Below, in pieces: positions 8,972 to 38,094 of a stretch of DNA of 64,000 bases. The notes below the pieces were generated by a model. The model made no database searches. It was not told where the DNA came from and saw nothing but the letters and a program-made list of their open reading frames with translations. The stretch covers positions 1 to 64,000 of the forward strand of contig PXRO01000035.1 in the NCBI GenBank assembly GCA_003021685.1, given 5' to 3'. Every line of letters starts with the position of its first letter. Position 1 is the first letter of the stretch. Source of the DNA: Halobacteriales archaeon QS_4_62_28. Its GTDB lineage: Archaea; Halobacteriota; Halobacteria; Halobacteriales; Haloarculaceae. The translations under genes and the position numbers were made by a program.

Positions 8972-9208
8972 ATGCCACATATTTGCCGGGACTGCAAACA
9001 GACGTTCAATACGGAACTCGAACTCGAACTGCACAAGGATACGTGCTCGGCCGGCGAACTGTTTTGCGACCGATGCGGAGAGCGGTTTGCGGAGCGGTCT
9101 GCCACAGAAGACGGCTGGCACTACCGATGTCCGAGCGAGGACTGTGACGGTGAGGGAATCGGCGAGGACATACACAAGGTATCGAAAGCACGCGTACAGA
9201 CACCCTGA
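8972..9208 (+). CDS. Small zinc-finger protein (HVO_2901-like)
   Basis: 78 residues from ATG 8972. A TATA-like GTAATTATAA at 8939-8948 is 24-33 bases ahead, which argues against the longer frame starting at 8948. Metal-binding pairs are visible: HICRDC with a later HKDTC, then FCDRCGERF and YRCPSEDC. This suggests two small zinc-binding knuckles. Haloarchaea encode many such small proteins, some tied to regulation or stress; the precise role is unknown. Its stop codon TGA is also the first three bases of the dispersed repeat TGATACTG. Confidence 0.75.
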   Translation: MPHICRDCKQTFNTELELELHKDTCSAGELFCDRCGERFAERSATEDGWHYRCPSEDCDGEGIGEDIHKVSKARVQTP

Positions 9209-9273
9209 TACTGTTTGTTGTAATACTGCCGGCTGTCACTGTTGCAAGCGATTCGCGACTCCGAGCTCGCGAA
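9206..9273 (-). repeat. Dispersed palindromic element copy D, starting in the stop codon of the zinc-finger gene
   Basis: It begins TGATACTG at the stop codon, then TACTGCCGGCTGTC at 9224-9237, then a hairpin core TTCGCGA-N8-TCGCGAA (9252-9273). The stretch GCAAGCGATTCGCGAC (9244-9259) is identical to 42211-42226. Read on the minus strand, it ends GACAGCCGGCAGTA like the other copies. Confidence 0.7.
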
Positions 9274-9307
9274 ACCCCACCCAAACGCATAGCCAGTCGT
9301 CTGTCGA

Positions 9308-9709
9308 TCACCCCGTCAGCAGCCGTTCGATACGCCCGAGCGCTCGCTGACACACCGGCGCGTACCCGGCGGCGAGGAGCGGCATTTCGAACACCGCCCG
9401 GCAACCGTTTTCGTCACCATCGACGCGATGCCCAGTCGCCGGCATCTCTGCGACGCGCCAGGTCCAGCGATAGTCCGCACAGGACGCGATCTCGAAGGGG
9501 ACCCGGATGCCGACTGGGGTCTTCACTCGCCCCGTCGTCCCCGTCTCGACGTACCGGTCGCTGCTCTCGACGGCACTGACCGAGGGTCCCCACGCGGGCC
9601 ATTGCTTGGTGTCGACCAGCAGGTCCCAGGCGTCGTCTCGCGGGGCCCGAATCGACCGATTCACGCAGAGTCGTCGGCCGTCGGGCGTCCGTTCGATGGC
9701 CACAGGCAC
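9308..9709 (-). CDS. SRPBCC (START-like) family protein
   Basis: 133 residues. The pattern NRSIRAPRDDAWDLLVDTKQW, followed by a conserved W-GPSV stretch and a C-terminal amphipathic helix (QRALGRIERLL), is typical of SRPBCC/polyketide-cyclase-like domains, which form a hydrophobic ligand cavity. The ligand is unknown. It is divergent from the ABC operon; a minus-strand TATA-like TTTATTACC at 9730-9738 is 22-30 bases upstream. The gene reads convergently with the zinc-finger gene, with repeat copy D between them. Confidence 0.8.
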   Translation of the reverse strand: MPVAIERTPDGRRLCVNRSIRAPRDDAWDLLVDTKQWPAWGPSVSAVESSDRYVETGTTGRVKTPVGIRVPFEIASCADYRWTWRVAEMPATGHRVDGDENGCRAVFEMPLLAAGYAPVCQRALGRIERLLTG

Positions 9710-9781
9710 ACGTGACGTTCGTTTTCATTGGTAATAAACGGGAGCCAAATATAGGTTAGTCCGGTCACAAGCGGAGAGCAG

Positions 9782-10678
9782 ATGATCGACGCGCGGGACC
9801 TTCGAAAGGAGTACGGCGACTTCGTGGCCGTCGAGGGGAGTACGTTCTCGGTCGACCAGGGGGAAGTGTTCGGCGTCATCGGTCCGAACGGTGCTGGCAA
9901 GACGACGACCCTGAAGATGCTCTCGGGGTTGCTCGAACCGACAGGGGGCGAGGTCAGCGTCGCCGGGTACGACGTGACCGACACCGAGATGCGCCAGCAA
10001 CTGGGGTTCCTGCCCGAAGCGTCCCCGCTGTACGAGGAGATGACGCCGAAATCGTATCTCCGCTTTTTCGCAGACCTGTACGACGTGCCCGAATCGGTCG
10101 CGACAGAGCGCATGCACGACACGCTCGACGAACTCGAACTGGAACACCGCGACCGCAAACTGGGAGACATGTCGAAGGGGATGAAACGGAAGGTCGCAAT
10201 CGCTCGCTCGCTGATCAACGACCCCGACGTGTTGCTCTACGACGAACCAGCGAGCGGTCTCGATCCGCTGACGACGAACTACGTCATCGAGTTTACCCAG
10301 CAACTCGCCGAAGAGGGCAAGACCATCGTCTTTTCGGCACACAACCTCTATCACGTCGAGACGATCTGTGACCGGGTCGCGATCATGAACGAGGGACGAA
10401 TCGTCGCCCGCGGTGACCTCGACGAACTCCAGGACGAATACGGCCAGCGCGAGTACCACGTCTACACGACAGTCGAAGTACCCGACGCCGTCCAGGAGAA
10501 CGGCCACTGGCGGCGGGTCGTCGACAGCATGGACGGCGTCGACTCGGTCCGGGAAGCGGCGACGGAACGCGGCGGGGGTGTCCTCGACATCAGGACCGAG
10601 GAGTCCAGTCTCGAAGAGGTGTTTCTCAACGTGGCCGAAAGCGAGACGCCGGGCACCCGCTATGTCGAGGATGCCTGA
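9782..10678 (+). CDS. ABC transporter ATP-binding protein (ABC-2 / NatA type)
   Basis: 298 residues. Walker A GPNGAGKT lies at 34-41, the signature is the variant MSKGMKRK near 130, and Walker B LLYDEPASGLDP is near 152-163, followed by the switch His (FSAHN). A C-terminal extension of about 80 residues is usual for exporters of the NatA/DrrA type. First gene of a three-gene operon: its TGA overlaps the next ATG by one base. It probably powers export by the two downstream permeases; the substrate is unknown. A TATA-like AAATATAGG at 9747-9755 precedes it. Confidence 0.93.
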   Translation: MIDARDLRKEYGDFVAVEGSTFSVDQGEVFGVIGPNGAGKTTTLKMLSGLLEPTGGEVSVAGYDVTDTEMRQQLGFLPEASPLYEEMTPKSYLRFFADLYDVPESVATERMHDTLDELELEHRDRKLGDMSKGMKRKVAIARSLINDPDVLLYDEPASGLDPLTTNYVIEFTQQLAEEGKTIVFSAHNLYHVETICDRVAIMNEGRIVARGDLDELQDEYGQREYHVYTTVEVPDAVQENGHWRRVVDSMDGVDSVREAATERGGGVLDIRTEESSLEEVFLNVAESETPGTRYVEDA

Positions 10679-12519
10679 TGAATCTGCGCAAACTGCTCCG
10701 TATCGCTCGATGGGAAGTGACGAAAAACGCCGGCGGTGTCGACAAGCGAACGATTGCGATCATGGGTCTCGCTGTCGTCGCGATGGTCGCAGTTGCCGCT
10801 GTCGCGGTCGCGGGCGGTGCGTCGGGACTCGATAGCGGCCTGTACAGGGTCGGCATCGAGGAGTCCAGTCCGTACTACGCGCCCGCGGCGGATGATCCGG
10901 CGTTTCTCGTTCGGGAACCGAGCACGCTGGCAGTCGCGCGCGGGAACCAGGAACTGCGCTTCGAGGGCACGGAACTCAGGAATCGCCCTGTCACCCAAAA
11001 GGAGAAAGCTGCACTCGGCGAGTTTCGGAGCAGTGTCGACAGCTACAACAGCAGGCAGATGGCCAGCGAGGACAACCAGACTGCGGCCTATCCAGTGGCG
11101 GTCTCGCTCGTCTATCTCGAACAGCGCGGTGTGACTGATACCGTCCAGACCAGCGATAGGCAATCGAGTAGCGACGGATCGAGCGGGAGCGCCAGCGGCG
11201 ACGGTAGCACGGATGGATCGGGCAGTAACGGTAGTGATAGAACAGGCGGATCGACCGGCGCGACACCGACCGGGAGCGATGGCGGTACGGCTTCCGGTGG
11301 GCTGAGTGGTCTCGGTGCTGGCCTGACCGGCGGAGCAGCCAGCGGCACGCCGTCGGACATCCAGCCACCGTTCCCGTTCGAGTCGCTCGTCCTCGCGTTC
11401 CTGTTTATCGTTCCGATGAACTTCGTCATCCAGGCGTACGGAAGTACGATGCTGTCAGAACGCCTCAACCGCCGTGGTGAACTGTTGCTCGTCTCACCAG
11501 TGAGTCGGTTCGACATCATCGCCGGGAAGACGGTCCCTTATCTCCTCGGAGCGATGGGGGTCATCACGGCAATTACGCTGGGCCTGCGGTTGTCCGGCCT
11601 CACCGCGGGCGGTGGTCCAGTCGCGATACTGGCCGTGATGCCACTCGCCTTGCTCTTCCTATCGGCGACCTTTTGCGGTGCGATGTTCGCCCGGTCGTTC
11701 AAGGAACTCACGTTCGTGACGGTGACTGTCACAGTCTCACTGACCAGTTACGCGTTCGTCCCCGCTATCTTCACCGACGTGACGCCAATCGCTCTGATAT
11801 CGCCACTGACCATCGTCGTGCGCGACCTCCAGGGCCAAGCGATATCGCTGACCGACTTTGCGTTTTCGACGACGCCACCGACGCTGACGGCGCTGGTCCT
11901 GTTCGGTCTCGGGGCCGGTCTCTACCGCGAGGAGGACATGTTCACCCAGCGCGCCCTCCCGCTGAAGATGCTCGACGCGCTCTCTGGCCGGATCAAATCG
12001 AAGTGGAGCGCACTGAAACTGTCGGCACTCCTGTTGCCGTTTGTCTTCGTCGCAGAACTGGCGGCCGTGGCACTGCTGTTTGCGCTCGGGGAAGTCTCGA
12101 TACCACTCGTGCTCGTGGCCGTCGTTGTCATCGAGGAAATCGCCAAGAGCATCCACCTCTACGCTGGTTTCGCGAGTGGCCGATACCGTCGCTCGCTCAG
12201 GGCAGCAGTGGCGGTCGGCGCACTCAGTGGTCTCGGCTTCTTCCTCGCAGAGAAGTTCGTCGCGATCATCCAGTTAGTTCAGTTAGACGATATCAACACT
12301 GGTGAGGCGGCGTTCATCACGGGGACCCCGCCCGACGGCGTGTCGCCCCTGCTTGTGACGCTGCTGTTACTCGCACCGCTTGCCTTGCACGCGGTGACGG
12401 CCATGGTGTCCTCGCTCGGTGCACGCCGGAATCGACGGTCGTACGCCGTTGCAGTGTTGCTTGCGATGGGCATTCATTTCGCGTACAACTACACGGTGGT
12501 GGTCACTCTTGTCCAGTGA
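10678..12519 (+). CDS. ABC-2 type permease fused to a PrsW-like intramembrane protease domain
   Basis: 613 residues. Residues 1-430 form an ABC-2 permease half: an N-terminal helix near 22-42, an outside domain with a Ser/Gly linker (about 160-220), then a six-helix block. Residues 440-613 form a second membrane domain with the PrsW/CPBP-type signature: EEIAK (Glu486, Glu487, Lys490), FFLAE (Glu525) and a late His600 in MGIHFAYN. These match the proposed active-site residues of glutamic-type intramembrane proteases. The fusion suggests a transporter that also cleaves, or once cleaved, membrane peptides. It lies in an operon with the ATPase (1-base overlap) and a second permease. Confidence 0.85.
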   Translation: MNLRKLLRIARWEVTKNAGGVDKRTIAIMGLAVVAMVAVAAVAVAGGASGLDSGLYRVGIEESSPYYAPAADDPAFLVREPSTLAVARGNQELRFEGTELRNRPVTQKEKAALGEFRSSVDSYNSRQMASEDNQTAAYPVAVSLVYLEQRGVTDTVQTSDRQSSSDGSSGSASGDGSTDGSGSNGSDRTGGSTGATPTGSDGGTASGGLSGLGAGLTGGAASGTPSDIQPPFPFESLVLAFLFIVPMNFVIQAYGSTMLSERLNRRGELLLVSPVSRFDIIAGKTVPYLLGAMGVITAITLGLRLSGLTAGGGPVAILAVMPLALLFLSATFCGAMFARSFKELTFVTVTVTVSLTSYAFVPAIFTDVTPIALISPLTIVVRDLQGQAISLTDFAFSTTPPTLTALVLFGLGAGLYREEDMFTQRALPLKMLDALSGRIKSKWSALKLSALLLPFVFVAELAAVALLFALGEVSIPLVLVAVVVIEEIAKSIHLYAGFASGRYRRSLRAAVAVGALSGLGFFLAEKFVAIIQLVQLDDINTGEAAFITGTPPDGVSPLLVTLLLLAPLALHAVTAMVSSLGARRNRRSYAVAVLLAMGIHFAYNYTVVVTLVQ

Positions 12520-13591
12520 TCGCTCCCGGGACCCGCGATTCGTGATCGCTCGCCGCGACCTCTCATCGTTGAGCCGCGAGAAGACCATCGTGCTCGCGCT
12601 GGTGATCCAGTTGTTCGTCGCCGCGTTCTCGTCGTTTCTCGTCGTCGGTCTCACGTCGCTGTACGATCCCAGTTCGGTCGAGTCGGACGGTATCGCCATC
12701 GGCGTCACTGGCGATGCCTCGCAGGCACTGTTCGAGGCAGTCGCCGAAACCGAGGGCGTCCGGCCTGTGGCATTCGACTCTCCGTCGGACGCTCGACGGG
12801 CCTTCGACGCGGGCCGGGTCAACGCGGTCCTCACCGGCCAGTACGCGGCCACACCGAACGGAGACGGCAAGATACTTCAGGTGACAGCGACAGCGCCCGA
12901 GGGAAGTATCCGGACCACGCTCGTCGTCGTCCAGCTCCGGACAGTGCTCAAGACCCTGGAGCGCAACGAGCGATTCGAGCGGGCGAACTCCCTGGAGCGC
13001 GTCCCGCTCACACTGCCACCCGAGGCAGATGCGAGTCCCTACTTTAGCTTCACGTACACGGTGTTGATCCCACTGCTCCTGTTTTTGCCACCGTTCATCA
13101 GTGGCTCCGTCGCAGTCGACACGGTGACCGAGGAGATAGAACGCGGCACTCTGGAACTGCTCCGGGTCGCCCCGGTGAGTTTGCTTGACATCGTCGATGG
13201 GAAGTCACTCGCAATGGTCGCACTCGCACCCGCACAGGCGGCGCTTTGGCTACTTCTACTTTCGCTAAACGGGATTTCCGTCGCCAATCCACTCGCCTTG
13301 CTGGTCTTCGTCAGCGCAATGGCCGCCATCGTCGTCGTCTTCGGCGTCGTCCTCGGTCTCCAGATGGGACGGCGACGGCCCGCACAGTTGCTCTACTCGG
13401 TGCTCACTCTCGTCGTGTTCGGTGCGGCGATTCTCCTGCCCGAGCATCCGGCGACGACGACAGCGAAACTCGCCGTCGATAGCCCGACGCTACTGACCTA
13501 CGGCCACGTCGGTGGCTACGTCGCACTTGCCGTGGCGCTGTTCGCCATCACGCGCCGGTACGTCGACCGGATCGAGCCCGAATCGCTGTGA
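12509..13591 (+). CDS. ABC-2 type permease
   Basis: About 360 residues from a TTG at 12509 that overlaps the previous gene by 11 bases; GTG 12542 (VIARRDLSSLSREK) is an equally possible start. Residues near 25-45 form the first helix, followed by an extracytoplasmic region of about 150 residues and then a block of six helices from about 180. GTLELLRVAPVS is the coupling region typical of the NatB/YhaP group. It is the last gene of the operon and the likely partner of the PrsW-fused permease. Confidence 0.88.
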   Translation: MSSDRSRDPRFVIARRDLSSLSREKTIVLALVIQLFVAAFSSFLVVGLTSLYDPSSVESDGIAIGVTGDASQALFEAVAETEGVRPVAFDSPSDARRAFDAGRVNAVLTGQYAATPNGDGKILQVTATAPEGSIRTTLVVVQLRTVLKTLERNERFERANSLERVPLTLPPEADASPYFSFTYTVLIPLLLFLPPFISGSVAVDTVTEEIERGTLELLRVAPVSLLDIVDGKSLAMVALAPAQAALWLLLLSLNGISVANPLALLVFVSAMAAIVVVFGVVLGLQMGRRRPAQLLYSVLTLVVFGAAILLPEHPATTTAKLAVDSPTLLTYGHVGGYVALAVALFAITRRYVDRIEPESL

Positions 13592-13616
13592 CGCTTCGAG
13601 CGTCGCCGATTCACGG

Positions 13617-13661
13617 CCCGGGGGTCGCGACAGTGTGAAACAGTTATAGCCGGCAGTATCA
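13617..13661 (+). repeat. Partial dispersed element ending in the stop codon of the next gene
   Basis: ATAGCCGGCAGTATCAGCAG (13647-13666) carries the common end module CCGGCAGTATCA. Its TCA (13659-13661) is the stop codon of the minus-strand secreted-protein gene. The hairpin core seen in other copies is missing or degenerate. Confidence 0.5.
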
Positions 13662-14696
13662 GCAGATCCCCTGGTTCCCTGACGTGATAACGACTGGTCT
13701 GTCCAGTGGCACTGAAATCACGTCGGGATCGGTGTTACTGCCCGAAAGCACCTGCCACTCGGTGACTTGGCCAGACCCCAGCGGCTCCCGCTCGGCCGCC
13801 TCGTTGAACGCGGGTTGAACGACGAGACGGAAGTTCCGGCCCAGTCCACGGAACGCGCCACCATCATTTCGTCCCCCGGCCCCCCAGGCCCAGCTCAGCA
13901 CACTCTGTGTCCGGTCGATCCTGAAGATGTCGTCGCTCCCCTCGTAACTGTCGTCGAGAACGGCCCATTCACCATCCGGCGGCAGGCCGGCGATTCCGAA
14001 CGTGGCAGCACCACCGTCCTCGTCCTCGCCACCGCCGTGGATGATGACCAGACTCAGGCCTCCGGGGCCTTCATAGAGGAACAGACGACTCACGCCGGGT
14101 CGTTCGAGATTCGTCGGCGTGTTCGACCGACGGGGGTTCTCTGCGTCGAGGTCGGGTTTATAGCCGTAGAACTCCTCGACGGTCTGGTCCTTGTAGCTCA
14201 GCGGTGTGATCTCGGCACATTTCTCACGCTTGGGCTTTCCACCGGGCAGTTCGTCGATGTCGACCCGCTGGCCATTGATGAATACCGTGGCGATATCTGC
14301 GCCGGCCGTTATTTCGAACGTCGTGATACGACCCGAGTAGAAGTAATTGTCTCTTCCTTGTCCAGCGACCACCCCCTCGACTGCGTTACGCTTGACTGTC
14401 TCGTTTTCGCCCGCCTCGTCCCCGGCTTTCAGTTTGCCGTTGACTGCCAGACGGTACTTGACACTGCCTGAACCGTCTCCGACGTTTCTGATTAGTATCT
14501 CGTTCGCGTTCTCGTGCGAGTGAACGCCGGTGTCGGGAGTGAGTATCGGGTTGATCGTCGAGACGCCGCTCTGTGTCGAGTGCCCGCTTGCGACGCCACT
14601 GAACCCGCCCAGGGCGATGCTGGACGCACCGATCATCTGTAGTATACGACGCCGGCCGATTCGTGAAGGGGATGTGTTCTCCTGCCGATTGTCCAT
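13659..14696 (-). CDS. Tat-exported protein of unknown function
   Basis: 345 residues. The N-terminus has a twin-arginine leader (IGRRRILQMIGASSIALGG, residues about 13-31) ending near AGHST, with no lipobox Cys, so a soluble exported protein is expected. The mature part is beta-rich with many Gly and Asn. It contains FSGVA, YFYSGRITTFEITAGADI (about 118-135) and a segment LSWAWGAGGRNDGG. No family was recognised. It is a single gene, convergent with the ABC operon. Confidence 0.72.
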   Translation of the reverse strand: MDNRQENTSPSRIGRRRILQMIGASSIALGGFSGVASGHSTQSGVSTINPILTPDTGVHSHENANEILIRNVGDGSGSVKYRLAVNGKLKAGDEAGENETVKRNAVEGVVAGQGRDNYFYSGRITTFEITAGADIATVFINGQRVDIDELPGGKPKREKCAEITPLSYKDQTVEEFYGYKPDLDAENPRRSNTPTNLERPGVSRLFLYEGPGGLSLVIIHGGGEDEDGGAATFGIAGLPPDGEWAVLDDSYEGSDDIFRIDRTQSVLSWAWGAGGRNDGGAFRGLGRNFRLVVQPAFNEAAEREPLGSGQVTEWQVLSGSNTDPDVISVPLDRPVVITSGNQGIC

Positions 14697-17378: not shown

Positions 17379-17996
17379 ATGGTCGAATACGAGCGATTGA
17401 GTGTGTGGACCGGGGTCGGGGTCCCCGTCTGGACACTCGCGACGATGTTGCTGGCCACGATTCTCTCGCCGTCGTTCTCCTGGACGGCGAACGACCTCTC
17501 GAATCTGGGGGCCAGCACTGACGTGGCGACGCCGCTGACGATTGCACTGTTCAACGGTGGGCTGATTTCGGGGGGTCTCGTCGGCGTGGCCTTCGCAGGT
17601 GCGCTCTGGATCGGCAGCCAGCATCCGGTGGAACGACTCGGAGCGATGCCGTTCGCGCTGACCGTGCTCACGATGGCCGGTGTCGGCGTCTTCCCGCAGT
17701 TCCACCCGCTTCACTTCCCGGTCGCAGTCGGCTTCTTCCTGCTCATCTCGGTCACGCTCTGGGTCTACGGCGCGGGGAACCTGCTCGCTGGCGCGCGAGC
17801 GCGGGGCGGGGCCACCATTGCCCTCGGTGTCCTCAATCTGGGCGTCTGGGTCGCCTGGGTGCAGATCGAGTGGCTCTCACAGCCCGGCCTGGCGATCCCC
17901 GAAGTCATCGGCGCGTTCATCTTCGCCGCGTGGACGGCCGCGACTGCACGCTGGCATCTCTCCGGAGCGCGGTCGCTCCGCCGTCCCAACAGATAG
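17379..17996 (+). CDS. DUF998 family integral membrane protein
   Basis: 205 residues with six hydrophobic segments (about 10-30, 50-73, 86-104, 112-136, 141-160, 166-185). NDLSNLGAS near 38-46 and FPQFHPLHFPVA near 107-118 are the usual DUF998 landmarks. Function unknown. The TAG stop (17994-17996) lies in the sequence ATAGTACTGCCGG, the start of repeat copy E. A TATA-like AATTATACC at 17348-17356 lies about 25-30 bases before the start. Confidence 0.88.
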   Translation: MVEYERLSVWTGVGVPVWTLATMLLATILSPSFSWTANDLSNLGASTDVATPLTIALFNGGLISGGLVGVAFAGALWIGSQHPVERLGAMPFALTVLTMAGVGVFPQFHPLHFPVAVGFFLLISVTLWVYGAGNLLAGARARGGATIALGVLNLGVWVAWVQIEWLSQPGLAIPEVIGAFIFAAWTAATARWHLSGARSLRRPNR

Positions 17997-18050
17997 TACT
18001 GCCGGACGTACGTTCGTGGAAGATTTCGTCACCCCTGGGTGTCGACTATC
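17994..18050 (-). repeat. Dispersed palindromic element copy E
   Basis: It starts in the stop codon of the DUF998 gene (TAGTACTGCCGGACGTACG) and has a hairpin TCGTCACCC-CT-GGGTGTCGA at 18026-18045 with one mismatch. Read on the minus strand it aligns with copies A and C: hairpin, then GACGAAATCTTCCACGAACG, then the end module CCGGCAGTACT. Confidence 0.65.
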
Positions 18051-18067
18051 GCCACGCAGTTACGGCC

Positions 18068-18162
18068 AACAGTATATACTGTTTGTTGTGACTGTTTACT
18101 GCTGATTCACTACACCGTGTCGGCGAACCAGCGGTAATGACTCATAACAAACAATATATTAC
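18068..18162. repeat. Inverted repeat (about 95 bases) overlapping the promoter of the HAD gene
   Basis: A perfect 16-base palindrome AACAGTATATACTGTT (18068-18083) opens it. The arms 18071-18104 and 18129-18162 are inverted repeats with 25 of 34 matches, sharing TGTTTGTT(G/A)TGA. The right arm includes an AATATATTA TATA-like box about 25-30 bases before ATG 18185. Confidence 0.7.
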
Positions 18163-29464: not shown

Positions 29465-29600
29465 TGTTCACCTTTCGACAGTGCGGCCTCAAATATATAT
29501 TGGTGAGGGCGGGAACGGGACTGTCACTCCCTTCGAATCACAGTTTGGGCTGCGTCGATGACGTTGTCGACGACCGGTGTCTTCTCGATGGGTTCGCAGG

Positions 29601-29680
29601 TGATACTGACGCACCTATCTGAAGAGTCTCGCCACTCCGGGGTGGCGAAACGCTTCACAGACGGACAGCCGGCAGTATCA
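29601..29680 (+). repeat. Dispersed palindromic element copy A (best-preserved)
   Basis: 80 bases with exact 8-base inverted ends TGATACTG / CAGTATCA. The core hairpin TCGCCAC-N6-GTGGCGA lies at 29629-29648. Positions 29613-29650 match 51304-51341 with two differences. Its last three bases TCA are the stop codon of the minus-strand kinase gene. Confidence 0.8.
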
Positions 29681-31732
29681 GGCATCCAGTGTCGAGACGG
29701 TGACGTGGCGGAAGGTCGCCTCGGCGAGAGCGCCCGGGACGATACTGCTTACGGCCAGGCCGACATAGACGGGATCGTCGATCTCGATACGGCGCTCGTC
29801 GACCGGTTCCCAGGTCTGACCGTCGGTCGAGAGCCACGCCGTCAGGCGGTCGCCGACGCGGTCAACGCGATACCAGTCCACTGCGAAGGGATCGACTTCG
29901 AGTGTCTGACTCGTTCCGTCTGTGCCTCGGTGGGTCCGCCACAGCAACTCCGTTCCTCGCCTCGGCGTTGCACCGGCGTACGCGTATGTCGCGTCTTCGT
30001 CGAGGCTGTCCCGGATCATGAATCCCGACTTGGAGTAGTCGGCGACGTGGTCGATATTGACGACGCGGCCCTCGATGCGGGTTGGTCTCTCGACAGTCGT
30101 GTAAACAAACTTGAAGTCGTTGTCCTGCCCCCGGATACCCGCGCCGTCGCCCGCGACGACCCACTCGTTACTGACAGAGTCGTGTTCGACGTAGCCCTCT
30201 TTTTCCAGGGTGCCGACGGTGCCGACATCAGTGAGGTCCTGGTCCACTCGCGGTTCGGGCGCTGGTTGCTCGCAGACGCCCAGGCAGTTGTCGACCTCGA
30301 ATCGGATACCGTCCTCACTCTCGGTGATCGACACGAACCAGTCGTTCCGTGCGGCGATGTCGTCGATGATACCCAGGCCTGCACTGGCCCAGTCCGGCGT
30401 CTCGGCGTCGGCGTTGTCGAGGACAATCGAACGGTCCGAGTCCGGTGTCCCGCCGTCGCCGTCGGTGACGTACACGCCGCCTTCGGGAGTCAGACCGACC
30501 GTGACCGTGACGCCATCTTCGCCCAGGTCGCCGTCATCGTCCTTGCGAGTCCGTGCCAATGGGGCAGTGGGATCGTGTTCGACGGCGTTTTGCAGGAGGG
30601 TTTCGAACAGAGGCCGCAGTTCGACCTTCTCTGCGTGGACGAGATACTCGTCGGGAATAGCCAGTTCGAGTTCCGCATCACCCGTCGAGAGCGGTTTCCA
30701 GGTGCTCTCGAGGAAGTCTGCCAGATAGAACGTGGTGCTGTCAGTGCCGCCGAGACCGCGATGACTCGCGACCGTGCTCATATCGTCGATCATCTCTTCC
30801 ATCCGTTCGAGTGCGGCCTCGGTCTTTTCGAGCGCAGTCTCCTCACCCGTTTCCCGTGCGATATCGAGATAGCCACTCGCGACCTGAAGCGGATTCTGAA
30901 GGTCGTGAGACAGATGGTCCGCGAACTGATCGAATCGCTCCCTGACCTCCCTGAGTCGCTTCTCCTTTTCCTTGAGCTCCGTCGAGTTCTGCGAGATACC
31001 GACGAGTCCTTTCAACCTGCCGTCCTCGCCGTACCACGGTGCTTTGGTCGTCCGCGACCAGTACTCGTCGCCGTCAGGCGCGTAACTTTCCTCACGCCTG
31101 AACACACGGGATTCTGATTCGACGACTGACATGTCGTCTTCGTAGGCGTCTTTTGCCAGCTCTGGTGTCTCGTCACTGTACAGTTCGATGTCGGTCTTTC
31201 CGAGGGCCTCGTCCGGGTCGGGCGCTCCGCGCAGGTCAGATAGTTTGAGGTGTCGTCCCTCAGTGTCTTTGGCGTACAGTGGGACCGCTAACTGGGTCAA
31301 CATCGCGTCGAGAATCGAACTCTCCTCTGTGGCCTGTCGGCTGGCAACGTAATCGTCGACTGCGCGCTCGACGACGGTCTGGAGGGTGTCGTCGTCGGGA
31401 GAAAACAGGCAGGTGGCGGCCCCAGCGAGGGTGACCGCGTTGGTGAACGACGCGTCGACTTCGCTGGCGAGGACGGCTATCGGGAGTGTGTCGTCTATCG
31501 ACCTGACCGCCTCGCACAACTCGACTGTCTCCGCTCGGTCCATCGTCGGCCCGACGACGAGACAACCGATATCCCTGCGGTCGGATAGCAGTGCCTCGAC
31601 GGCCGCGGCCGATTCACGGTGAACGACCTCGTCAACGGCGCTCTCGGCGAGAGCTGACAGTCGCTCCTTCGTCGATGCCGGTTGTTGGCCGACGCAGGCG
31701 ACAGAGCGAGGCGGATCGAGGAGGACGTTCAT
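29678..31732 (-). CDS. PAS histidine kinase with a C-terminal lectin-like (concanavalin-type) domain
   Basis: 684 residues. A degenerate receiver-like domain (about 8-128) is followed by PAS (about 140-255, KDTEGRHLKLSD), HisKA with His276 in HLSHDLQNPLQ, and HATPase_c with LLQNAVEHD (Asn382), VTDGDGG and AGLGIIDDIA. Residues about 495-684 then read SKSGFMIRDSLDEDATYAY, HRGTDGT, DWYRVDRVGDRLTAWLSTDG: the pattern of the DUF1349/concanavalin-like domain usually found in secreted carbohydrate-active proteins. No signal or membrane helix is present, so the domain would face the cytoplasm. The ATPase G1 box is weak. A TATA-like minus-strand TTATATTATC lies near 31770-31779. Confidence 0.85.
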   Translation of the reverse strand: MNVLLDPPRSVACVGQQPASTKERLSALAESAVDEVVHRESAAAVEALLSDRRDIGCLVVGPTMDRAETVELCEAVRSIDDTLPIAVLASEVDASFTNAVTLAGAATCLFSPDDDTLQTVVERAVDDYVASRQATEESSILDAMLTQLAVPLYAKDTEGRHLKLSDLRGAPDPDEALGKTDIELYSDETPELAKDAYEDDMSVVESESRVFRREESYAPDGDEYWSRTTKAPWYGEDGRLKGLVGISQNSTELKEKEKRLREVRERFDQFADHLSHDLQNPLQVASGYLDIARETGEETALEKTEAALERMEEMIDDMSTVASHRGLGGTDSTTFYLADFLESTWKPLSTGDAELELAIPDEYLVHAEKVELRPLFETLLQNAVEHDPTAPLARTRKDDDGDLGEDGVTVTVGLTPEGGVYVTDGDGGTPDSDRSIVLDNADAETPDWASAGLGIIDDIAARNDWFVSITESEDGIRFEVDNCLGVCEQPAPEPRVDQDLTDVGTVGTLEKEGYVEHDSVSNEWVVAGDGAGIRGQDNDFKFVYTTVERPTRIEGRVVNIDHVADYSKSGFMIRDSLDEDATYAYAGATPRRGTELLWRTHRGTDGTSQTLEVDPFAVDWYRVDRVGDRLTAWLSTDGQTWEPVDERRIEIDDPVYVGLAVSSIVPGALAEATFRHVTVSTLDA

Positions 31733-32033
31733 CTGGAACGAGAGAGTGTTATGACCACTACTACGTGTGATAATATAAGCCTGTCCTGACGTGTAAACCG
31801 ATTGACCTGGACAGCCACAGTCGTGTCCTTCGGGGCCACGTCATTCGTGCGATGGCGTTCCCCGTGCATGCGTGATGGTGGATGGGAGATACCCCCGGCG
31901 CTTCCCACCCTCACTCCCTGTGCTCGACATGGCACCGTCTATGTGAGATGACTACCTGAAAGTTGCGGGCAAGTGTAAAGGAGTGAATATATGTCGACCT
32001 TGGATTTATTCGCTTCCCACGAGTACGTGTTGT
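31733..32033. other. Noncoding interval of 301 bases between divergent genes
   Basis: It holds the kinase promoter (near 31770-31779) and a forward TATA-like GATTTATTC at 32002-32010 about 25-30 bases before the HtrA start. A short open frame on the minus strand (31729-31935) has no gene-like features. Nothing else is supported. Confidence 0.55.
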
Positions 32034-33143
32034 ATGGACAATCGGCTGTCACGCCGTGCGATGCTCGGAACTCTCGCGACTGCTGTCGGCGGTGCCGCCG
32101 GCTGTCAGGCACCAGTCGGCAATCCGATCCAGGCAGATCCGGATGACGGATCGAGTCAGGCGACGGAGTCGACGGGATCAGCGAATCAGATCAACGAAAA
32201 CAGTCCGTACGGCGCAGTGTACGACGACGTCGCGGACTCCGTTGCGGCGGTGCAGGTCTACACCAGCAACGGCCGTGGTGGACAGGGGAGCGCGTTCGTC
32301 TACAGCGACGACTATCTCGTCACGAACCAGCACGTCGTGGGCAGAGCCGAGAAAGTATACGTCCAGTACCGCGATTCGGGCTGGATCGAAGCCCCCGTTG
32401 TCGAGACGGACGTCTACAGTGACCTCGCTGTCCTCGAAGTCAATCGAAAGCCCGACAGTGCGTCGACACTCCCGTTCGTCGAGGAGGAGCCAGGTATCGG
32501 GACCGAGGTCGTCGCCATCGGCAACCCCTTCGGCCTCTCGGGTTCTGTCTCGGCGGGCATCATCAGCGGCGTCGACAGAACGCTCCCGGCGGCAAACGGG
32601 TTCTCGATTCCCGACGCAGTCCAGACCGACTCGGCCGCCAATCCGGGCAACAGCGGCGGCCCGCTGGTCGACCTCGACGGCCGGATTGTCGGGGTGATCA
32701 ACTCCGGTGGTGGCGACAACATCGCCTTTGGCATCTCGGCGGCACTGACAAAGCGCGTCGTTCCAGCACTGATCGAGGAGGGCGACTACCAGCACTCCTA
32801 TATGGGCGTCCGCCTGACGGACGTCACACCGCAGATCATTCAGGCGAACGATCTCCCGGTGTCGAGAGGCGTCTACATCGATGAGGTGATCTCCGGCGGC
32901 CCCTCCGATGGCGTCCTCCAGGGGTCGATGGGCGAACGGGAAATCAACGGGGTGACTGCTCCAGTCGATGGTGATGTCGTCGTCCGGATGAACGACACGT
33001 CGACGCCGACGCGTCAGGAACTCTCGACGTTCCTCGCGCTGGAAACCTCGCCCGGCGACACTATCGACGTGCGAGTCATTCGCGACGGCGAGCGCCAGAC
33101 CGTCGAACTGGAACTGGGTAACCGGCCGCCCGTGGAACAGTAG
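32034..33143 (+). CDS. htrA: HtrA/DegP-like serine protease, Tat-exported lipoprotein
   Basis: 369 residues from ATG 32034. The leader has LSRRAMLGTLATAVGGAAGC: twin arginines and a lipobox with Cys24, so it is predicted to be lipid-anchored outside the membrane. The trypsin-like domain has the triad His in VTNQHVVG, Asp in YSDLAVLE and Ser in NPGNSGGPLVD. A single PDZ domain follows (about 250-360, with GPSDGVLQG and the substrate loop YMGVRL). It degrades or refolds damaged exported proteins. It reads convergently with the GINS gene; the intergenic gap is 8 bases. Confidence 0.93.
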   Translation: MDNRLSRRAMLGTLATAVGGAAGCQAPVGNPIQADPDDGSSQATESTGSANQINENSPYGAVYDDVADSVAAVQVYTSNGRGGQGSAFVYSDDYLVTNQHVVGRAEKVYVQYRDSGWIEAPVVETDVYSDLAVLEVNRKPDSASTLPFVEEEPGIGTEVVAIGNPFGLSGSVSAGIISGVDRTLPAANGFSIPDAVQTDSAANPGNSGGPLVDLDGRIVGVINSGGGDNIAFGISAALTKRVVPALIEEGDYQHSYMGVRLTDVTPQIIQANDLPVSRGVYIDEVISGGPSDGVLQGSMGEREINGVTAPVDGDVVVRMNDTSTPTRQELSTFLALETSPGDTIDVRVIRDGERQTVELELGNRPPVEQ

Positions 33144-33151
33144 GCGAACTG

Positions 33152-34072
33152 CTAGTCGAGCGGTTCCGCAGCGTCGCGCTCGACCAGCGGGGCCGCATTC
33201 TGCTCTGGTAGCGTCACTACGTCGTCTCTCGACAGGTCGTACTCCCGCTGGTCGATACCGAAAATCTCGCCCACGTCGTCCGTGATCCGAACTGTCGTCC
33301 GGTCGACAGTGTCGGACGCATCGCCCGATCCACTATCACCCGACGGTAAGTCTGTCGGTGCTGTCGTCTCGGGTGCTGGGGCCGTTCCACCGTCCGAGGC
33401 CGGCGACTGGTCGTCGCCCGCACTTGGCGGGTCGCCCGATACTGGCCCGCTTTCGGGTGGTAACTCGTCATCGGCGGTGCCCATCACGTCTGCCGCATCG
33501 ACCGCCGCTCGACCGTCGGTTGTACTGCCCTGCTCGTCCCGCTCGTCCCGGGACGCGAGGGGGGCAGTCCCGTCCGCTGACGCTAGTTCTGGGGGCCCAC
33601 TGGCCGCCCCCGATTGTGCCTGCCCTTCCGGTGGGGCCGTATCGTCGGGGCTGGCTGATCCGCCCGCGACAGCGCCCGGTGACGCCTCGCCCGCGAGTAC
33701 GTCGAGAACGTGATCCCGGTTGTTCTCGATTGCGCCGACGAGTGTCTCGAAGAGGTCCCGCTCTTCGCGCGTCAGGCCTTCCTCTTCGGCTGGCATATCT
33801 GCCGCGGCCAGCGAAGCCATCTTGACGATCTTGCCGACGCGGCGCTCGTAGATCGCCTCGACGGTCTGTTCTGCGGTGTTGATGTCGTCGGTGAGTCGAT
33901 TGACCTCCGGTGCGTCGAAGGGGTCGTCCGCGCGGTCTGCTGCGGTGTCGCGTTCCTCGCGGAGTTGTTGGATGAACTTGCCGGCGTCCGCGTAGAACGA
34001 TTCTCGCAGTTGCTGGAGGCTGTCGGTCTGGCGCTCCCGGGACTGGACAGACTGGAGTTCGTCGAGATTCAT
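33152..34072 (-). CDS. GINS complex subunit (Gins51/Gins15 type)
   Basis: 306 residues. The N-terminal helical A domain (about 1-115: RESFYADAGKFIQQLREE, LTREERDLFETLVGAIENN) and a small C-terminal B domain (about 255-306: RITDDVGEIFGIDQREYDL) are those of archaeal Gins51. GINS joins Cdc45/GAN and MCM in the replicative helicase. A low-complexity acidic, Pro/Gly/Ser-rich linker of about 130 residues separates the domains, longer than usual for non-halophilic archaea. The start overlaps the priS stop, matching the conserved haloarchaeal priS-GINS gene pair. Confidence 0.88.
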   Translation of the reverse strand: MNLDELQSVQSRERQTDSLQQLRESFYADAGKFIQQLREERDTAADRADDPFDAPEVNRLTDDINTAEQTVEAIYERRVGKIVKMASLAAADMPAEEEGLTREERDLFETLVGAIENNRDHVLDVLAGEASPGAVAGGSASPDDTAPPEGQAQSGAASGPPELASADGTAPLASRDERDEQGSTTDGRAAVDAADVMGTADDELPPESGPVSGDPPSAGDDQSPASDGGTAPAPETTAPTDLPSGDSGSGDASDTVDRTTVRITDDVGEIFGIDQREYDLSRDDVVTLPEQNAAPLVERDAAEPLD

Positions 34073-35247
34073 TCTGGCCCTTTCTCGGCACGGCCGCGGG
34101 CCATCGCGAAGATGCCCACGTGCTCTGGGTAGGATCCAACGCCCGATTCCAATGTAAAACTATCGCCACCGAGTTCGACAACTCCGGGATCTCTCACGTC
34201 GAGCGTGATATCGTGGCCCCGAAACGTCGTCGGAACGGCATCGACAAGCGGGTCGAACTCGTCGATAGCGGATCGCTCGATGCGCCTGACTGCCAGCCCG
34301 CTTCCACCGTGGAGGCTACCGGGCAGTCGGATCAACCGATTCGTATCTGTCGTCACGGGTTCGTCGATGGGCGCGTTGTCCGTCGCGACCACTTCCGTCA
34401 TCAGGATCTTTGCGATCTGGTAGAACGCCGGATGGACGTCGATATTGCCCGTGGCGAGTTGCTCGTAGTTTTCCCGGGCCGCGTTGAGCGCGGCCGACGC
34501 CGTTCGGTCACCGATGCCCTCGTGCTCTTGCAGCCGTTCGATGGCTTTGTCGTCGTCGAGTTCTAGCAGGTCGTCGACACCCGTCATAATGTGCCGGTGT
34601 GCGCGCCCGCTCCAGCCGCCTTCGGTGGCGAGCGTTCGCTTCTGTGCCGGACTGGACCGCCCGGCCGTTCCCGCCACTGCCTGTTCGTCGACGAGTTGCT
34701 CGAACTCCAGGCCGATGCCGCGCACGTAGTCGACGACTTCGCGCCGGGCGTCGCGTTCGAGCTGCTGGATGCCAGCGTCCCGAACGTGGACGTGGTACCC
34801 GCGTCCGCCCGAGAACACGACTGTCAGATCTTCGAAACCGAAGTCGTTCTCCAGGAAGTCCAGTAGCCGGAGCAGCGCGTCCTTGCACTTTGCGAGCATC
34901 TGAGCGTAACTGTCCTCGCCGAGTACGACGGAGGGCAGGTGGTCGGCGTCGAGGTCGAACACCAGGTCCGACGACCGCCACTCTTTCTCGCTCATCGAGG
35001 ATGCACTCGGGTCGCGGTACCGTCCGGCAGAGAAGTAGACGTGTTTTGGACGCTTGCGCCGGAGAAAGTCCCCAATTTCGCCGAGGTCCAGCAGCGACCG
35101 GTGGCGGACCATCGTCTCGCCGGGCCCGTCGGTCCAGGGAACGAAGCCCCACTCGCGCTCGTTGGCGTCCGTCGGCGGCGTCAACTCGGCCCGTCGGTAG
35201 TGGTCGCCGAACCGTCCCCGCAGATACGCTCGGGTCCGCTCTTCCAT
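34069..35247 (-). CDS. priS: DNA primase small (catalytic) subunit PriS
   Basis: 392 residues. The catalytic carboxylates are Asp98 and Asp100 in DLVFDLDADHLP, with the FSGGRGYHVHVRD motif near 144-156 and a late basic region (RLPGSLHGGSGL) typical of archaeo-eukaryotic primases. It makes RNA primers for replication with PriL, which is not in the window. Its 3' end overlaps the GINS gene by four bases, so the two replication proteins are coupled. Length is normal. Confidence 0.96.
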   Translation of the reverse strand: MEERTRAYLRGRFGDHYRRAELTPPTDANEREWGFVPWTDGPGETMVRHRSLLDLGEIGDFLRRKRPKHVYFSAGRYRDPSASSMSEKEWRSSDLVFDLDADHLPSVVLGEDSYAQMLAKCKDALLRLLDFLENDFGFEDLTVVFSGGRGYHVHVRDAGIQQLERDARREVVDYVRGIGLEFEQLVDEQAVAGTAGRSSPAQKRTLATEGGWSGRAHRHIMTGVDDLLELDDDKAIERLQEHEGIGDRTASAALNAARENYEQLATGNIDVHPAFYQIAKILMTEVVATDNAPIDEPVTTDTNRLIRLPGSLHGGSGLAVRRIERSAIDEFDPLVDAVPTTFRGHDITLDVRDPGVVELGGDSFTLESGVGSYPEHVGIFAMARGRAEKGPE

Positions 35248-35336
35248 CTACACCCCTCTTTGCGGAGTGTCATCAAAGGAGTTGTGCCTCTCGGTCCGGC
35301 CGTCAGTGCGACGACAGTATCGGCGTCGCCGGTCGG

Positions 35337-35816
35337 TCAGCCGCGCAGGATCTTCGACAGTTTGTCCCGAATCGTATTGTCGCCAAGTTTGAGATAGCGG
35401 GCGTCGCCACCGTCCTCGTAGTAGTTCTCGATTTTGCGGCGGCACTCGAACCCGAGGTGTTCGTAGAACTCGATTGCCTCCCGGTTCGTCGCCCGCGCGT
35501 GACAGGTGACGCTGCCGTAGTCCTCCGAGACCCGCGCGACGAGTCGCTTGCCAAAGCCGTGGCCCCGGTACTGGGAGTCCACCGCGAGGAAGAGAACGTA
35601 CCCGTCACTCCGGACCGCCGCAAAGCCGATCAGGCGGTCCCGGGACCCGTCGATGTAGAGGTAGACGCGTGACCGCCTGTACGCATTTGTAAAAAAGCCA
35701 CGTCGCTGTCGCAAGACGCCGTCGTCCTCGCGGATGCGCTCTTTCAACTCCCAGGCCGTATCCGCGTACTCATCGCTTCCGCGGTCGACGACCCGCGACT
35801 CGACGTTGACGCTCAC
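35337..35816 (-). CDS. GNAT family N-acetyltransferase
   Basis: 159 residues. The acetyl-CoA binding motif A is DSQYRGHGFGKRLVARV (about 80-96). ATNREAIEFYEHLGFE near 108-123 is the common motif B of RimI-like enzymes. Acceptor unknown. It lies just upstream of priS in the same direction, with about 90 bases between, so it may be cotranscribed. ATG start. Confidence 0.88.
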   Translation of the reverse strand: MSVNVESRVVDRGSDEYADTAWELKERIREDDGVLRQRRGFFTNAYRRSRVYLYIDGSRDRLIGFAAVRSDGYVLFLAVDSQYRGHGFGKRLVARVSEDYGSVTCHARATNREAIEFYEHLGFECRRKIENYYEDGGDARYLKLGDNTIRDKLSKILRG

Positions 35817-35960
35817 TACCAGACATTGCCAGTACGAGATTATAATTTTACCGGCCCGGTCCGTCCAGAGACATGCCCGCTGTCGACACTACCGGATCGC
35901 CGTGACGAACGTGTCAGGAAGGATCAACAGAGTTAGGCACGCGACCCGCCTAGTCAGTGT

Positions 35961-37055
35961 ATGAACGGACGGACGCCGTATCACCACCTGCTGATGCTTG
36001 CCGGAATCGTCGTACTCGCTCGTCCGGCAGCCGCACATGTCGACTACGTTACTGATCAGGCCGGAGATACTGTCGATGCGATCACCCTCATCCGGGAGAC
36101 GTTGTCGGACCCGCTCAACGCGGCGCTGGTCGGTGGTGCCATCGCGGCCGCGATGGTGGGTCTCACGCTGTACCTGCGCTCTCGACCACAGGTCAAGGAC
36201 ATCGAGATCCTCCGGGAAACGCTGTCGAGTTACGCCGACCTGATACCGTGGATGCTCCGTCTCAGTCTCGGCCTCCCCCTCGTCGGGGCCGGATTCCAGG
36301 GCTACCTGTTCGCGCCGACAGTCACGTTCGACCCGTCAGTGAACCCGCTCTTGCGATTGCTTTTCGTCGGCCTGGGCTTCTTTATCCTCTTTGGCCTGGG
36401 GACGCGAATCGCGACGAGTATCGGGACGGTGCTGTACCTGTATTCGCTGACTGTCAGTCCCGACGTATTGCTCGCCCTGGAGTATCTTCCGGGGTTTATT
36501 GCCCTGTTCTTGCTGGGCGGCGGCCGTCCGAGTGCAGACGAAATCTTGCTGGACATCTCCTCGACTGAGGGTACGATTTACGGGCAGATCGACCCCGTTC
36601 ACCGGCTGAAGCTGGCACTCGACGAACTCACCGGGCCATACCGTCGGTACGTCCCGACCGTCCTCCGGGTCGGTCTCGGCGTCTCCTTCGTCTTTCTGGG
36701 CATCACCCAGAAGCTGGGCGATCCCGCACGCTCACTTGCTGTCGTCGAGAAGTACAACCTCACTGCTGTCGTGCCCGTCGACCCGGGCCTCTGGGTGCTC
36801 GGTGCCGGCCTCACCGAGGCGGCCGTCGGGGTCGCACTCATCGTGGGGCTACTCACGCGGGCCAGTGCCGGCATTGCCTTCCTGCTTTTCACGACCACAC
36901 TCTTCGGTCTGCCCGACGACCCGGTGCTGGCTCACGTCACCCTTTTCGGGATGGCATCGGCGCTCTTTACCCTTGGTTCGGGTCCTCTGTCGCTGGACCG
37001 ATACCTGTTGACAGACCAGTCGACTGACACCGACGTGATTCCGGCGGCCGACTAA
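35961..37055 (+). CDS. DoxX-like integral membrane protein
   Basis: 364 residues with an N-terminal signal-like segment (MLAGIVVLARPAAAHV) and about eight membrane segments. The C-terminal half (YVPTVLRVGLGVSFVFLGITQKLGDP, then GAGLTEAAVGVALIVGLLTR) follows the DoxX/DoxD pattern. The middle half is a weaker copy of the same fold, so the protein may be an internal duplication. DoxX relatives take part in redox reactions at the membrane; the substrate here is unknown. Single gene. Confidence 0.82.
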   Translation: MNGRTPYHHLLMLAGIVVLARPAAAHVDYVTDQAGDTVDAITLIRETLSDPLNAALVGGAIAAAMVGLTLYLRSRPQVKDIEILRETLSSYADLIPWMLRLSLGLPLVGAGFQGYLFAPTVTFDPSVNPLLRLLFVGLGFFILFGLGTRIATSIGTVLYLYSLTVSPDVLLALEYLPGFIALFLLGGGRPSADEILLDISSTEGTIYGQIDPVHRLKLALDELTGPYRRYVPTVLRVGLGVSFVFLGITQKLGDPARSLAVVEKYNLTAVVPVDPGLWVLGAGLTEAAVGVALIVGLLTRASAGIAFLLFTTTLFGLPDDPVLAHVTLFGMASALFTLGSGPLSLDRYLLTDQSTDTDVIPAAD

Positions 37056-37149
37056 CTCCGCTGGTGCGGTCCCTATCGCGACACGATGCTCCCCGAGATA
37101 GCATTCCGGTGGGGGAAAGCACAAGGTGGCGCGGGTCAGAGGCAGTGGT

Positions 37150-38007
37150 ATGATCGACGAGACTGTCGAGGAAATCTCCGAGATGCAAACCCACAGTTCC
37201 TCTATCGTGGCAATCAAGGCTGCACGGGCACTGTCGGCTCTGGGCAACCGTGAGTTCCCGACTGTCGAAGAGTACCTGCGCGCGCTCGACCGGAACAGCG
37301 GTGCTCTTCGGCGCGCGAACCCGTCTCACGCGTCACTACACACCACTCAGCGACGGATCGTCCAGCGTGTGCGAGACAGCGACCCCGACAGCGTCTCGGC
37401 GGCCAAGGAACTGACCGAAGTAGCCATTACGGATGTCGTCGAACGCGTCCAGACGGGGAAAGCGCGCGCGGCGAAACGGTGTGGAGCGTTCTTGGACGAC
37501 TCAGCGACGATACTGACCCACGACTACTCCTCGACAGTCCTCGAAGCAATCGAACATCGAGTCAGGACGGTCGAAGATCCGGACCTCGAAGTGTACGCGA
37601 CCGAAGCGCGCCCGCGCTATCTCGGTCGAAAGCTCGTTCGTCGGCTCGCGACGGTCGAGGGCGTCGAAGCACACCTGATCATCGACGGCGCAGCGGGTCA
37701 CTTCCTGTCAGACTGTGACCGGGTCGTCGTCGGCATCGACTGTATCGTCGACCAGACGCTGTACAATCGGATCGGGACGTATCCAATCGCCGCCACGGCG
37801 GCCCACCGCGACGTACCGGTGACGGCAGTCGGGTCTGGGTCGAAACTCATCGACAGCGGATTCAAATTTGAAAACGAGATCCGGTCCCCCACAGAGGTGA
37901 TGCGCGAACCCGCTGAAGGGTTCACCGTCGAGAATCCGGCCTACGACGCGACGCCGACGCGCCTGCTCGATACGGTGGTCACCGACAAGTCGATCATCGA
38001 GTTCTGA
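37150..38007 (+). CDS. eIF-2B alpha/beta/delta-like protein (ribose-1,5-bisphosphate isomerase family)
   Basis: 285 residues from ATG 37150. A helical N-terminal part is followed by a Rossmann-like C-terminal domain with VVVGIDCIVDQTLYNRIGTY, VTAVGSGSKLID and an ending SIIEF. Archaeal members are often ribose-1,5-bisphosphate isomerases of the AMP (RuBisCO) pathway, and some are named translation initiation factor eIF-2B. The conserved Cys and Asp of the isomerase may be those in RCGAFLDDSATIL and GIDCIVD. No type III RuBisCO gene is in the window. The TGA stop is followed directly by a palindromic repeat. Confidence 0.85.
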   Translation: MIDETVEEISEMQTHSSSIVAIKAARALSALGNREFPTVEEYLRALDRNSGALRRANPSHASLHTTQRRIVQRVRDSDPDSVSAAKELTEVAITDVVERVQTGKARAAKRCGAFLDDSATILTHDYSSTVLEAIEHRVRTVEDPDLEVYATEARPRYLGRKLVRRLATVEGVEAHLIIDGAAGHFLSDCDRVVVGIDCIVDQTLYNRIGTYPIAATAAHRDVPVTAVGSGSKLIDSGFKFENEIRSPTEVMREPAEGFTVENPAYDATPTRLLDTVVTDKSIIEF

Positions 38008-38094
38008 TACTATACCGGTGGACGTACCGTTTGATGCCTCTCAGTCGTCACGGTCCCCGGGCTGAATGTATCATTGCGTACGTCCACCGGTATA
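38005..38094. repeat. Dispersed element copy F: 84-base inverted repeat right after a stop codon
   Basis: Perfect arms TATACCGGTGGACGTAC (38011-38027) and GTACGTCCACCGGTATA (38078-38094) enclose a GC-rich centre with a TCCCCGGG core. The upstream TGATAC (38005-38010) contains the gene's stop. The right arm and next bases recur at 6093-6126 in opposite orientation. Confidence 0.85.

Follow-up and report, generated by a model that had tools for sequence, protein, structure and literature searches.

Small intergenic palindromes are known from bacteria, where they include the REP/BIME and RUP/BOX repeats. The palindromes considered here were met in a 64,000-nucleotide stretch of the genome of Halobacteriales archaeon QS_4_62_28 (the window; positions 1 to 64,000 of contig PXRO01000035.1, assembly GCA_003021685.1), and they differ from these bacterial repeats in a 3-bp TNA duplication and in their exact overlap with stop codons. 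They are non-autonomous mini-transposons, or miniature inverted-repeat transposable elements (MITEs), which are present in dozens to hundreds of copies in some haloarchaea, and most of the elements in the window are copies of one haloarchaeal MITE superfamily. This superfamily is abundant and ordinary in kind, but unusual in its docking, since a strong and replicated excess of insertions is found at stop codons. The excess is probably best explained by MITEs whose TNA duplication rebuilds the stop codon that they enter, while harmful insertions are lost.

In the parts of the literature drawn on here (PMC3119063, PMC10969869), prokaryotic MITEs, including those of Haloquadratum walsbyi, are likewise short, non-coding elements with inverted ends that duplicate their target, occur in multiple copies and nest in other elements, whereas the 3-bp TNA duplication, the strong hairpin centre, the stop-codon docking and the presence of up to hundreds of ends per genome set the window's family apart. 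Members of the IS1031 group of insertion sequences prefer TNA and make a 3-bp repeat according to the sections of PMC12016507 used here, and are thus alike in target and duplication, but differ in the end sequence compared. The SMR elements of Haloquadratum are also short, have inverted ends without a known parent and insert in other elements, although, in the portion of PMC3119063 considered, they make no target duplication, as the window's family does. The PATEs and IS605-type elements of Haloquadratum are palindromic, and the PATEs are transposase-free as well, but the same portion of that paper (PMC3119063) describes both as having neither inverted ends nor a target duplication. No description of the end sequence or of a stop-codon bias was found in the literature surveyed, which was covered in part, with supplements outside its scope, and which included PMC3119063, PMC6382973, PMC12016507, PMC10264941, PMC10969869 and PMC10664404.

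Anatomy, copy number and target duplication

The window lies in contig 35 of a 2.64-Mb assembly in 57 contigs (G000:C35). The exact end CCGGCAGTATCA occurs 39 times in this genome, including two occurrences in the window (13650 and 29669), as opposed to one occurrence of the reversed control. When up to one mismatch was allowed, GTCCGACAGTATNA was found 105 times (control 1) and GNCGGCAGTATNA 175 times (control 47). Family members are mostly 76–79 bp long, with inverted ends reading TACTG[T/C]CGG... and without a transposase gene. Type 1 elements (76–78 bp) extend from TACTGTCGGACGTAACTATCTGAAG to CTTCCGTCCGACAGTA and carry an identical TNA on either side, as seen in the flanks of 30 loci and in a BLAST search with the window's copy at 29.6 kb, in which 40 of 123 candidates were scored. 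Type 2 elements extend from TACTGCCGGCTGT to ACAGCCGGCAGTA and share the centre TTCGCNACCCCGGGGTNGCGAA with type 1.

A profile search with nhmmer in the window and in 98 stretches around ends in the same genome (taken from among the matches listed, about 100 per end type) yielded 108 merged copies, weak ones included; because the stretches were picked around element ends, densities derived from them are comparable between site classes but not absolute. Perfect identical TNA trinucleotides border 44 of the 108 copies. In a hand count, 51 copies had TNA on both sides, equal in 44 and unequal in seven (among them the 29.6-kb hybrid of the window), as compared to about one quarter equal by chance, although the script had sought a matching pair first. 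Short, devoid of a transposase gene, equipped with inverted ends and a target duplication, and dispersed in many copies with empty sites, the elements have these properties in common with MITEs. Their insertion is shown to take place at 5'-(C/G)TNA(G/C)-3', with duplication of the TNA. A preliminary description of the window had considered TGATAC as a unit recognized by a transposon, but TGA is the variable TNA target and TAC represents the first bases of the element.

Direct proof of the duplication is provided by nesting in a different element, the type 3 MITE (82–84 bp; TA-TACCGGTGGACG...CGTCCACCGGTA-TA, with TA as its own target). Type 1/2 elements reside, in both orientations, at one identical CTCAG of type 3 copies with visible ends (L079, L092 and L133), and in a further case (L085) the same CTCAG was judged from the same 11-base context; uninterrupted type 3 copies serve as base-exact empty sites for these insertions. 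Besides the window, the type 3 MITE was seen at about 25 places, some of them partial, in L039–L133. In several cases it lies at the TA of TACTG/CAGTA ends, which, together with types 1/2 at the type 3 CTCAG, amounts to mutual insertion. Phage records contained no match to the elements.

Insertions at stop codons

To locate the target, each clean element was removed together with one copy of its duplication, and genes were called by a dicodon-based finder for which this DNA also served as training set, and which was used throughout with the exception of plasmid pLC1Hm-01 (PLSDB gene table, incomplete). Among the 44 clean targets in the window's genome, 17 are exact in-frame TGA/TAA stop codons, 26 are intergenic and one is coding. 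The stop share of the non-coding clean insertions (17/43) compares with 6.2% expected, or 7.5–7.7% after weighting for the flanking bases, as insertions prefer C or G before and G or C after TNA (p between 3e-10 and 7e-9). Expressed per 1000 TNA sites, insertions number 40 at stops (17/425), 10.6 up to 100 nt downstream (8/756), 9.7 at sites that follow one gene and precede the next (5/516), 5.3 upstream (10/1873), 0.9 far from genes (3/3392) and 0.08 in coding sequence (1/13,198). A measure free of the gene finder points the same way, with 20 of the 44 targets closing an open frame of 100 codons or more, as opposed to 12.5% of all TNA sites, and 36 of the 108 copies, clean or not, have a predicted stop in the right orientation within a few bases of their outer end.

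The family is unevenly distributed among other genomes. End matches are frequent in G061 (593), G064 (464), G065 (131), G066 (107) and G059 (79), with controls of at most 12, and in the isolates G001 (135), G002 (276) and G003 (154) of the window's own genus, with controls of at most 3; G023, G032 and G028 have 98, 157 and 26, respectively. Low counts were obtained in G060 (17), G062 (28), G063 (4), G004 (16), G005 (3) and G006 (1), and some genomes, e.g. G007, G012 and G021, gave no end matches. Four genomes were used to assess the stop share of non-coding clean insertions, which amounts to 7/20 in G032 (10.1% expected), 6/17 in G023 (12.4% expected), 2/6 in G061 (7.0% expected, p=0.06) and 5/28 in G064 (4.3% expected), or 20/71 when pooled (7.1% expected, p=7e-8). 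On the Halomicrobium plasmid pLC1Hm-01, where the genes of the record were used, the share of copies touching an annotated stop is 4/11 (7.1% expected, p=0.006). The preliminary description had tied the elements to stop codons from five of seven places in the window, and instead of being scattered without such a tie, copies beyond the window keep it (17/44 in the window's genome, 20/71 in the four others).

Stops also exceed their immediate surroundings. Pooled over five genomes, 37 of 1337 stop sites are occupied versus 18 of 2166 downstream sites within 100 nt (p=1.6e-5); taken alone, the window's genome (p=0.001) and G064 (p=0.037) reach significance in this comparison, and G032, G023 and G061 do not. 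The 37 include two insertions from one stop codon of G032 (L774, 4298–4487), which are also part of its 7/20, and the per-gene profile given below has 36, probably for this reason. At this locus two elements of 77 and 109 bp stand in tandem, each with TCA, which indicates that the rebuilt target was reused. In G064, the 26 clean elements of L358–L377 comprise 23 TCA and three TGA targets on the contig + strand, a strand bias without explanation.

Orthologues with and without the element reveal the origin of the stop codon. In Haloarcula hispanica pHH400, an M48 protease gene ends in ...TCC TGA TACTGCC..., where the TGA opens the element, and the same 825-bp gene on H. marismortui pNG700 ends at the same TGA without an element (...TCC TGA ACGAGG...); in Haloarcula sp. 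CBA1115 the stop of this gene is followed by a diverged relative of the element. Similarly, a Halomicrobium mukohataei gene ends in TCC TGA plus element, and its counterpart in strain LC1Hm ends in TCG TAA without one. The IF-2B family gene of the window shares its GAGTTC TGA end with the orthologue in G036, which has no element there, whereas the orthologues in G001 and G002 end two codons later, and in G002 a type 2 end follows after about 95 nt (the 3' end was readable in five of ten loci besides the window's gene). These comparisons show that the stop codon at the insertion site is native.

Survival or choice at the insertion site

A transposase acting in trans presumably moves the MITEs. 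As TGA and TAA stops are TNA sites, an insertion there generates a stop codon, the element and a second copy of the stop. Because the 3-bp duplication rebuilds the stop, the upstream protein stays unchanged, as is shown by orthologues which terminate at one and the same stop whether or not an element is present. Insertions that disrupt genes or promoters would be purged, and survivors would become concentrated at stops and close downstream, a step backed by a fresh burst that lacks a stop bias (see below). It is therefore unsafe to argue, as the preliminary description did, that MITEs inserting at random should show no preference for stop codons, since insertions at TNA stops leave the protein intact and survivors can pile up. 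The near absence of insertions from coding TNA sites in the window's genome likewise counts for survival.

The alternative is that the bias arises at insertion, from an active preference of the transposase for stop codons or the 3' ends of transcripts, be it mediated by local sequence, by DNA structure or by a link to the termination of transcription or translation. Consistent with such a preference, the peak at offset 0 is sharp (odds ratio 2.6 versus the next 50 nt), stops exceed the downstream sites within 100 nt in the pooled genomes, and two tandem elements share one stop codon at L774. However, allowing for the preferred flanking bases lifts the stop share to be expected from 6.2% to no more than about 7.5%, and 11 of 29 insertions in G064 lie upstream of genes. 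The freshest copies also speak against it. Plasmid CP095391 of Natribaculum breve (L867–L879) carries 13 copies, of which 11 are identical and all 13 have perfect TNA duplications, and judging from their sequences they represent a recent burst; the ends of this element fit TACT[A/G][T/C]CGGACGTAA and read TACTA on one side. None of the 13 lies in a stop codon (12 are non-coding and one is coding, 10 being far from called genes), as compared to 37/120 in the pooled genomes (Fisher p=0.019), and one closes an open frame of 100 codons (background 10.6%); one further copy on plasmid CP095392 was outside the stop test. The lack of a stop bias in a fresh burst favours the loss of harmful insertions over a choice of stops at insertion, and we hold survival to be the better account with fair assurance, active targeting being the less likely one. 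A more specific form, in which a haloarchaeal transposase outside the inspected IS5-type loci is guided to stop codons or transcript ends, provides the element with a safe harbour in the last codon and adds a strong hairpin to many mRNA 3' ends, would be improbable.

Several observations weigh against survival as the source of the excess. In the five genomes, insertions per 1000 TNA sites fall from 26.9 at the stop to 7.2 over the next 20 positions (+1 to +20; p=0.002), with 12.5 between +21 and +50 (p=0.0006 for the stop versus +1 to +50), followed by 7.9 at +51 to +100 and 3.0 at +101 to +200, and inside the gene end they number 3.9 at -30 to -1 and 0 at -60 to -31. Tolerance alone offers no obvious source of the drop behind the stop, unless terminators or unseen genes are harmed there. 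The Natribaculum burst represents one family on one plasmid, with 10 of 13 sites far from called genes, and as it too avoids predicted coding sequence (1/13), it is no raw unselected sample. In addition, a parent transposase with these ends was not found in the sampled DNA. The DNA behind the stop has diverged in the Haloarcula and Halomicrobium orthologue pairs, so that these pairs show a native stop and not a base-exact empty site. In the closely related genomes G001 and G003, all eight comparable copies (out of 12 in the G001 stretches, four being not comparable) are common to both, hence no recent empty site was seen within the genus; a seemingly empty site at L838 proved to be filled, as is evident from L840. 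The shared copies (L838–L855) have flanks of about 89–99% identity, so that copies there are old and stable.

A further possibility is that the elements have been domesticated, with the hairpin ending or protecting transcripts as a terminator or a REP-like 3'-end stabilizer. The hairpins are strong, with folding energies of -52.5 kcal/mol for type 2a (z -10 versus shuffles) and -38.5 for type 1 (z -5.4), the window's hybrid reaching z -3.5. In 49 full 78-bp copies, 70% of the arm positions pair in register versus 21–29% when the arms are slid by 1–3 bases. The outer 12 pairs (end positions 1–12 each pair in 41–49 of the 49 copies) and a central stem (30–37 with 42–49) are conserved, and 16/63 and 27/52 never pair. 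Pairs 6/73, 10/69, 11/68 and 34/45 consist of differing Watson–Crick pairs across copies, and the both-sided changes in the central stem, such as those of pair 34/45 (CG in 27, GC in 12 and TA in 3 of 49), would suit a conserved function of the hairpin. Nevertheless, symmetric changes at the ends are expected of any element with both ends read by one transposase. The central stem is harder to explain by the reading of ends, and may be a binding site or a product of palindrome correction.

Archaeal terminators feature a T-rich tract. Of 50 full copies, none has a run of four T on the record's + strand and four have one on the other strand, and element-bearing stops differ from other stops neither in downstream T-tracts (4/17 versus 116/561) nor in convergent neighbours (9/17 versus 211/520). 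A terminator role is therefore unsupported, as is the termination signal envisaged in the preliminary description, and domestication is very unlikely. A scan of 29500–29800 with sigma-70 and terminator models, which are unsuited to archaea, gave no match. On the survival account the hairpin would simply end up in the 3' end of the mRNA, and the positions of the elements would need no dedicated role in termination or processing.

Parent transposase and the elements of the window

No parent transposase was encountered in about 3.5 Mb of sampled DNA, the whole genomes not having been scanned for end pairs; in stretches of the window's genome, ends were sought in pairs 350–3000 bp apart. Neither Natribaculum breve plasmid has a parent transposase between ends, and end-pattern scans of viral contigs returned no convincing pair among the matches listed. 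A 1531-bp pair in L182 was discarded as two separate ends, because argH and an adjacent biosynthesis gene (both identified by eye from their translations) lie between them. A 1392-bp pair in G003 and a 2344-bp pair in G001 were rejected as well, as were 12 further long pairs with equal TNA, since in each of them one end or both form part of a complete short element. Ten large open reading frames (ORFs) from nine of these 12 matched host-type Pfam families in nine cases and nothing in one, with no transposase among them; the Pfam test left out L370, L853, L190, the weak pair on the second Natribaculum plasmid and the pair on viral contig L710. As far as inspected, long equal-TNA pairs are neighbouring short elements with host genes in between. 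The 2344-bp unit of G001 (L837, 3402–5745) has half-element ends and TCA on both sides, and encodes a PemK-like toxin (PF02452) along with a 358-aa ORF that has no Pfam match; it is possibly an element with acquired cargo.

The parent might be an IS5-type element of the IS5/IS1031 group located outside the sample, which would be compatible with survival at rebuilt stops. The TNA target and the 3-bp duplication match the group (as given in part of PMC12016507), but the one published IS1031-group end compared from that source, GAACCTGTCTAGTATCT, is unlike TACTGTCGG and TACTGTCGGAC, none of the 36 PF01609 loci inspected (of 71 rows in eight genomes) is bounded by a pair of these ends, and PF13586 has no match in the eight genomes. 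Two of the PF01609 loci (L145 and L388) hold a single end-like motif each. Since the target rule fits and the ends do not, the family is not filed in the IS1031 group, and this affiliation is a possible but doubtful one. Descent from IS200/IS605 relatives (PATEs), which the preliminary description had raised, has palindromes and a haloarchaeal host in its favour, but can be practically dismissed because the family has both the inverted ends and the 3-bp duplications that PATEs lack in the account cited above (PMC3119063, in part).

All seven places noted in the window hold palindromic elements as described, with corrections to extent and family (Table 1), and five of them adjoin gene stop codons, the exceptions being the 42.2-kb and 51.3-kb copies. 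The assignment of all seven to one family holds for most of them, but not for 38011–38094: the palindrome reported at 38005–38094 is a MITE of another family that targets TA and has inserted into the end of a type 2 remnant starting at the IF-2B stop. The weakest of the five stop cases is ORF 8948–9208 (86 aa), which has no Pfam match and was missed by the gene finder. The copy previously placed at 17994–18050 occupies 17997–18074, and its flanks, TAG and TAT, form no equal TNA pair. The flanks of the 29.6-kb hybrid are also unequal (TGA/TCA), and since recombination between two copies would yield an element with unequal flanks and mixed arms, such an origin is suggested.

Table 1. Elements, flanks and adjoining stop codons in the window
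Positions	Strand	Feature	Remark
9206..9208		TGA stop of ORF 8948-9208(+)	TNA target
9209..9223	+	TACTGTTTGTTG, end of a further short MITE-like family, followed by TAA	TAA apparently serving as next target; TACTGTTTGTTG found 5 times in 689 kb
9224..9273	+	CCGGCTGT-type (type 2) element, left half	Truncated
13617..13658	+	Type 2 element, right half	Ends in GCCGGCAGTA
13659..13661	-	TCA = TGA stop of gene 13659-14696(-)	Right TNA flank
17994..17996	+	TAG, stop codon of the DUF998 gene 17379-17996	Left flank
17997..18074	+	Complete 78-bp element	Diverged
29601..29603		TGA	Left flank of 29.6-kb hybrid
29604..29677	+	74-bp hybrid element	Type 1-like left arm, type 2 right arm
29678..29680	-	TCA = TGA stop of PAS/HisKA (kinase) gene 29678-31732(-)	Right flank
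38005..38007	+	TGA ending the IF-2B family gene 37126-38007	Target of type 2 remnant
38008..38010	+	TAC, start of a type 2 end	Interrupted by type 3 MITE
38011..38094	+	Type 3 MITE, 84 bp including flanking TA	Inserted at TA of TGATACTACCGGCTGTCG
38095..38104	+	CCGGCTGTCG	Rest of interrupted type 2 end
42199..42272	+	Degenerate type 2 copy	Not at stop; closest gene ends at 42183
51289..51291		TCA	Left target duplication
51292..51367	+	76-bp type 1 element	Perfect TCA duplication; not at stop
51368..51370		TCA	Right target duplication

The end TACTGTTTGTTG belongs to a further palindromic family, partly with TNA as left flank, which was seen at 9209 and 18077 in the window and in L092, L104 and L117. 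The tRNA-Arg(cct) gene at 51374–51447 begins 3 nt beyond the end (51370) of the TCA duplication of the type 1 element, and as element and duplication directly precede it, the tRNA must now be parted from its former upstream DNA. Two tRNAs are the only Rfam matches in the window at the gathering threshold.

To conclude, a target rule as simple as TNA with a 3-bp duplication can turn stop codons into protein-sparing landing sites, for which several genomes provide numbers, and an abundant haloarchaeal mobile superfamily has been pointed out. The recently active copies of Natribaculum breve are suited to separating targeting from survival and offer a good source for an active transposase. Furthermore, many haloarchaeal mRNAs may bear these hairpins in their 3' ends.

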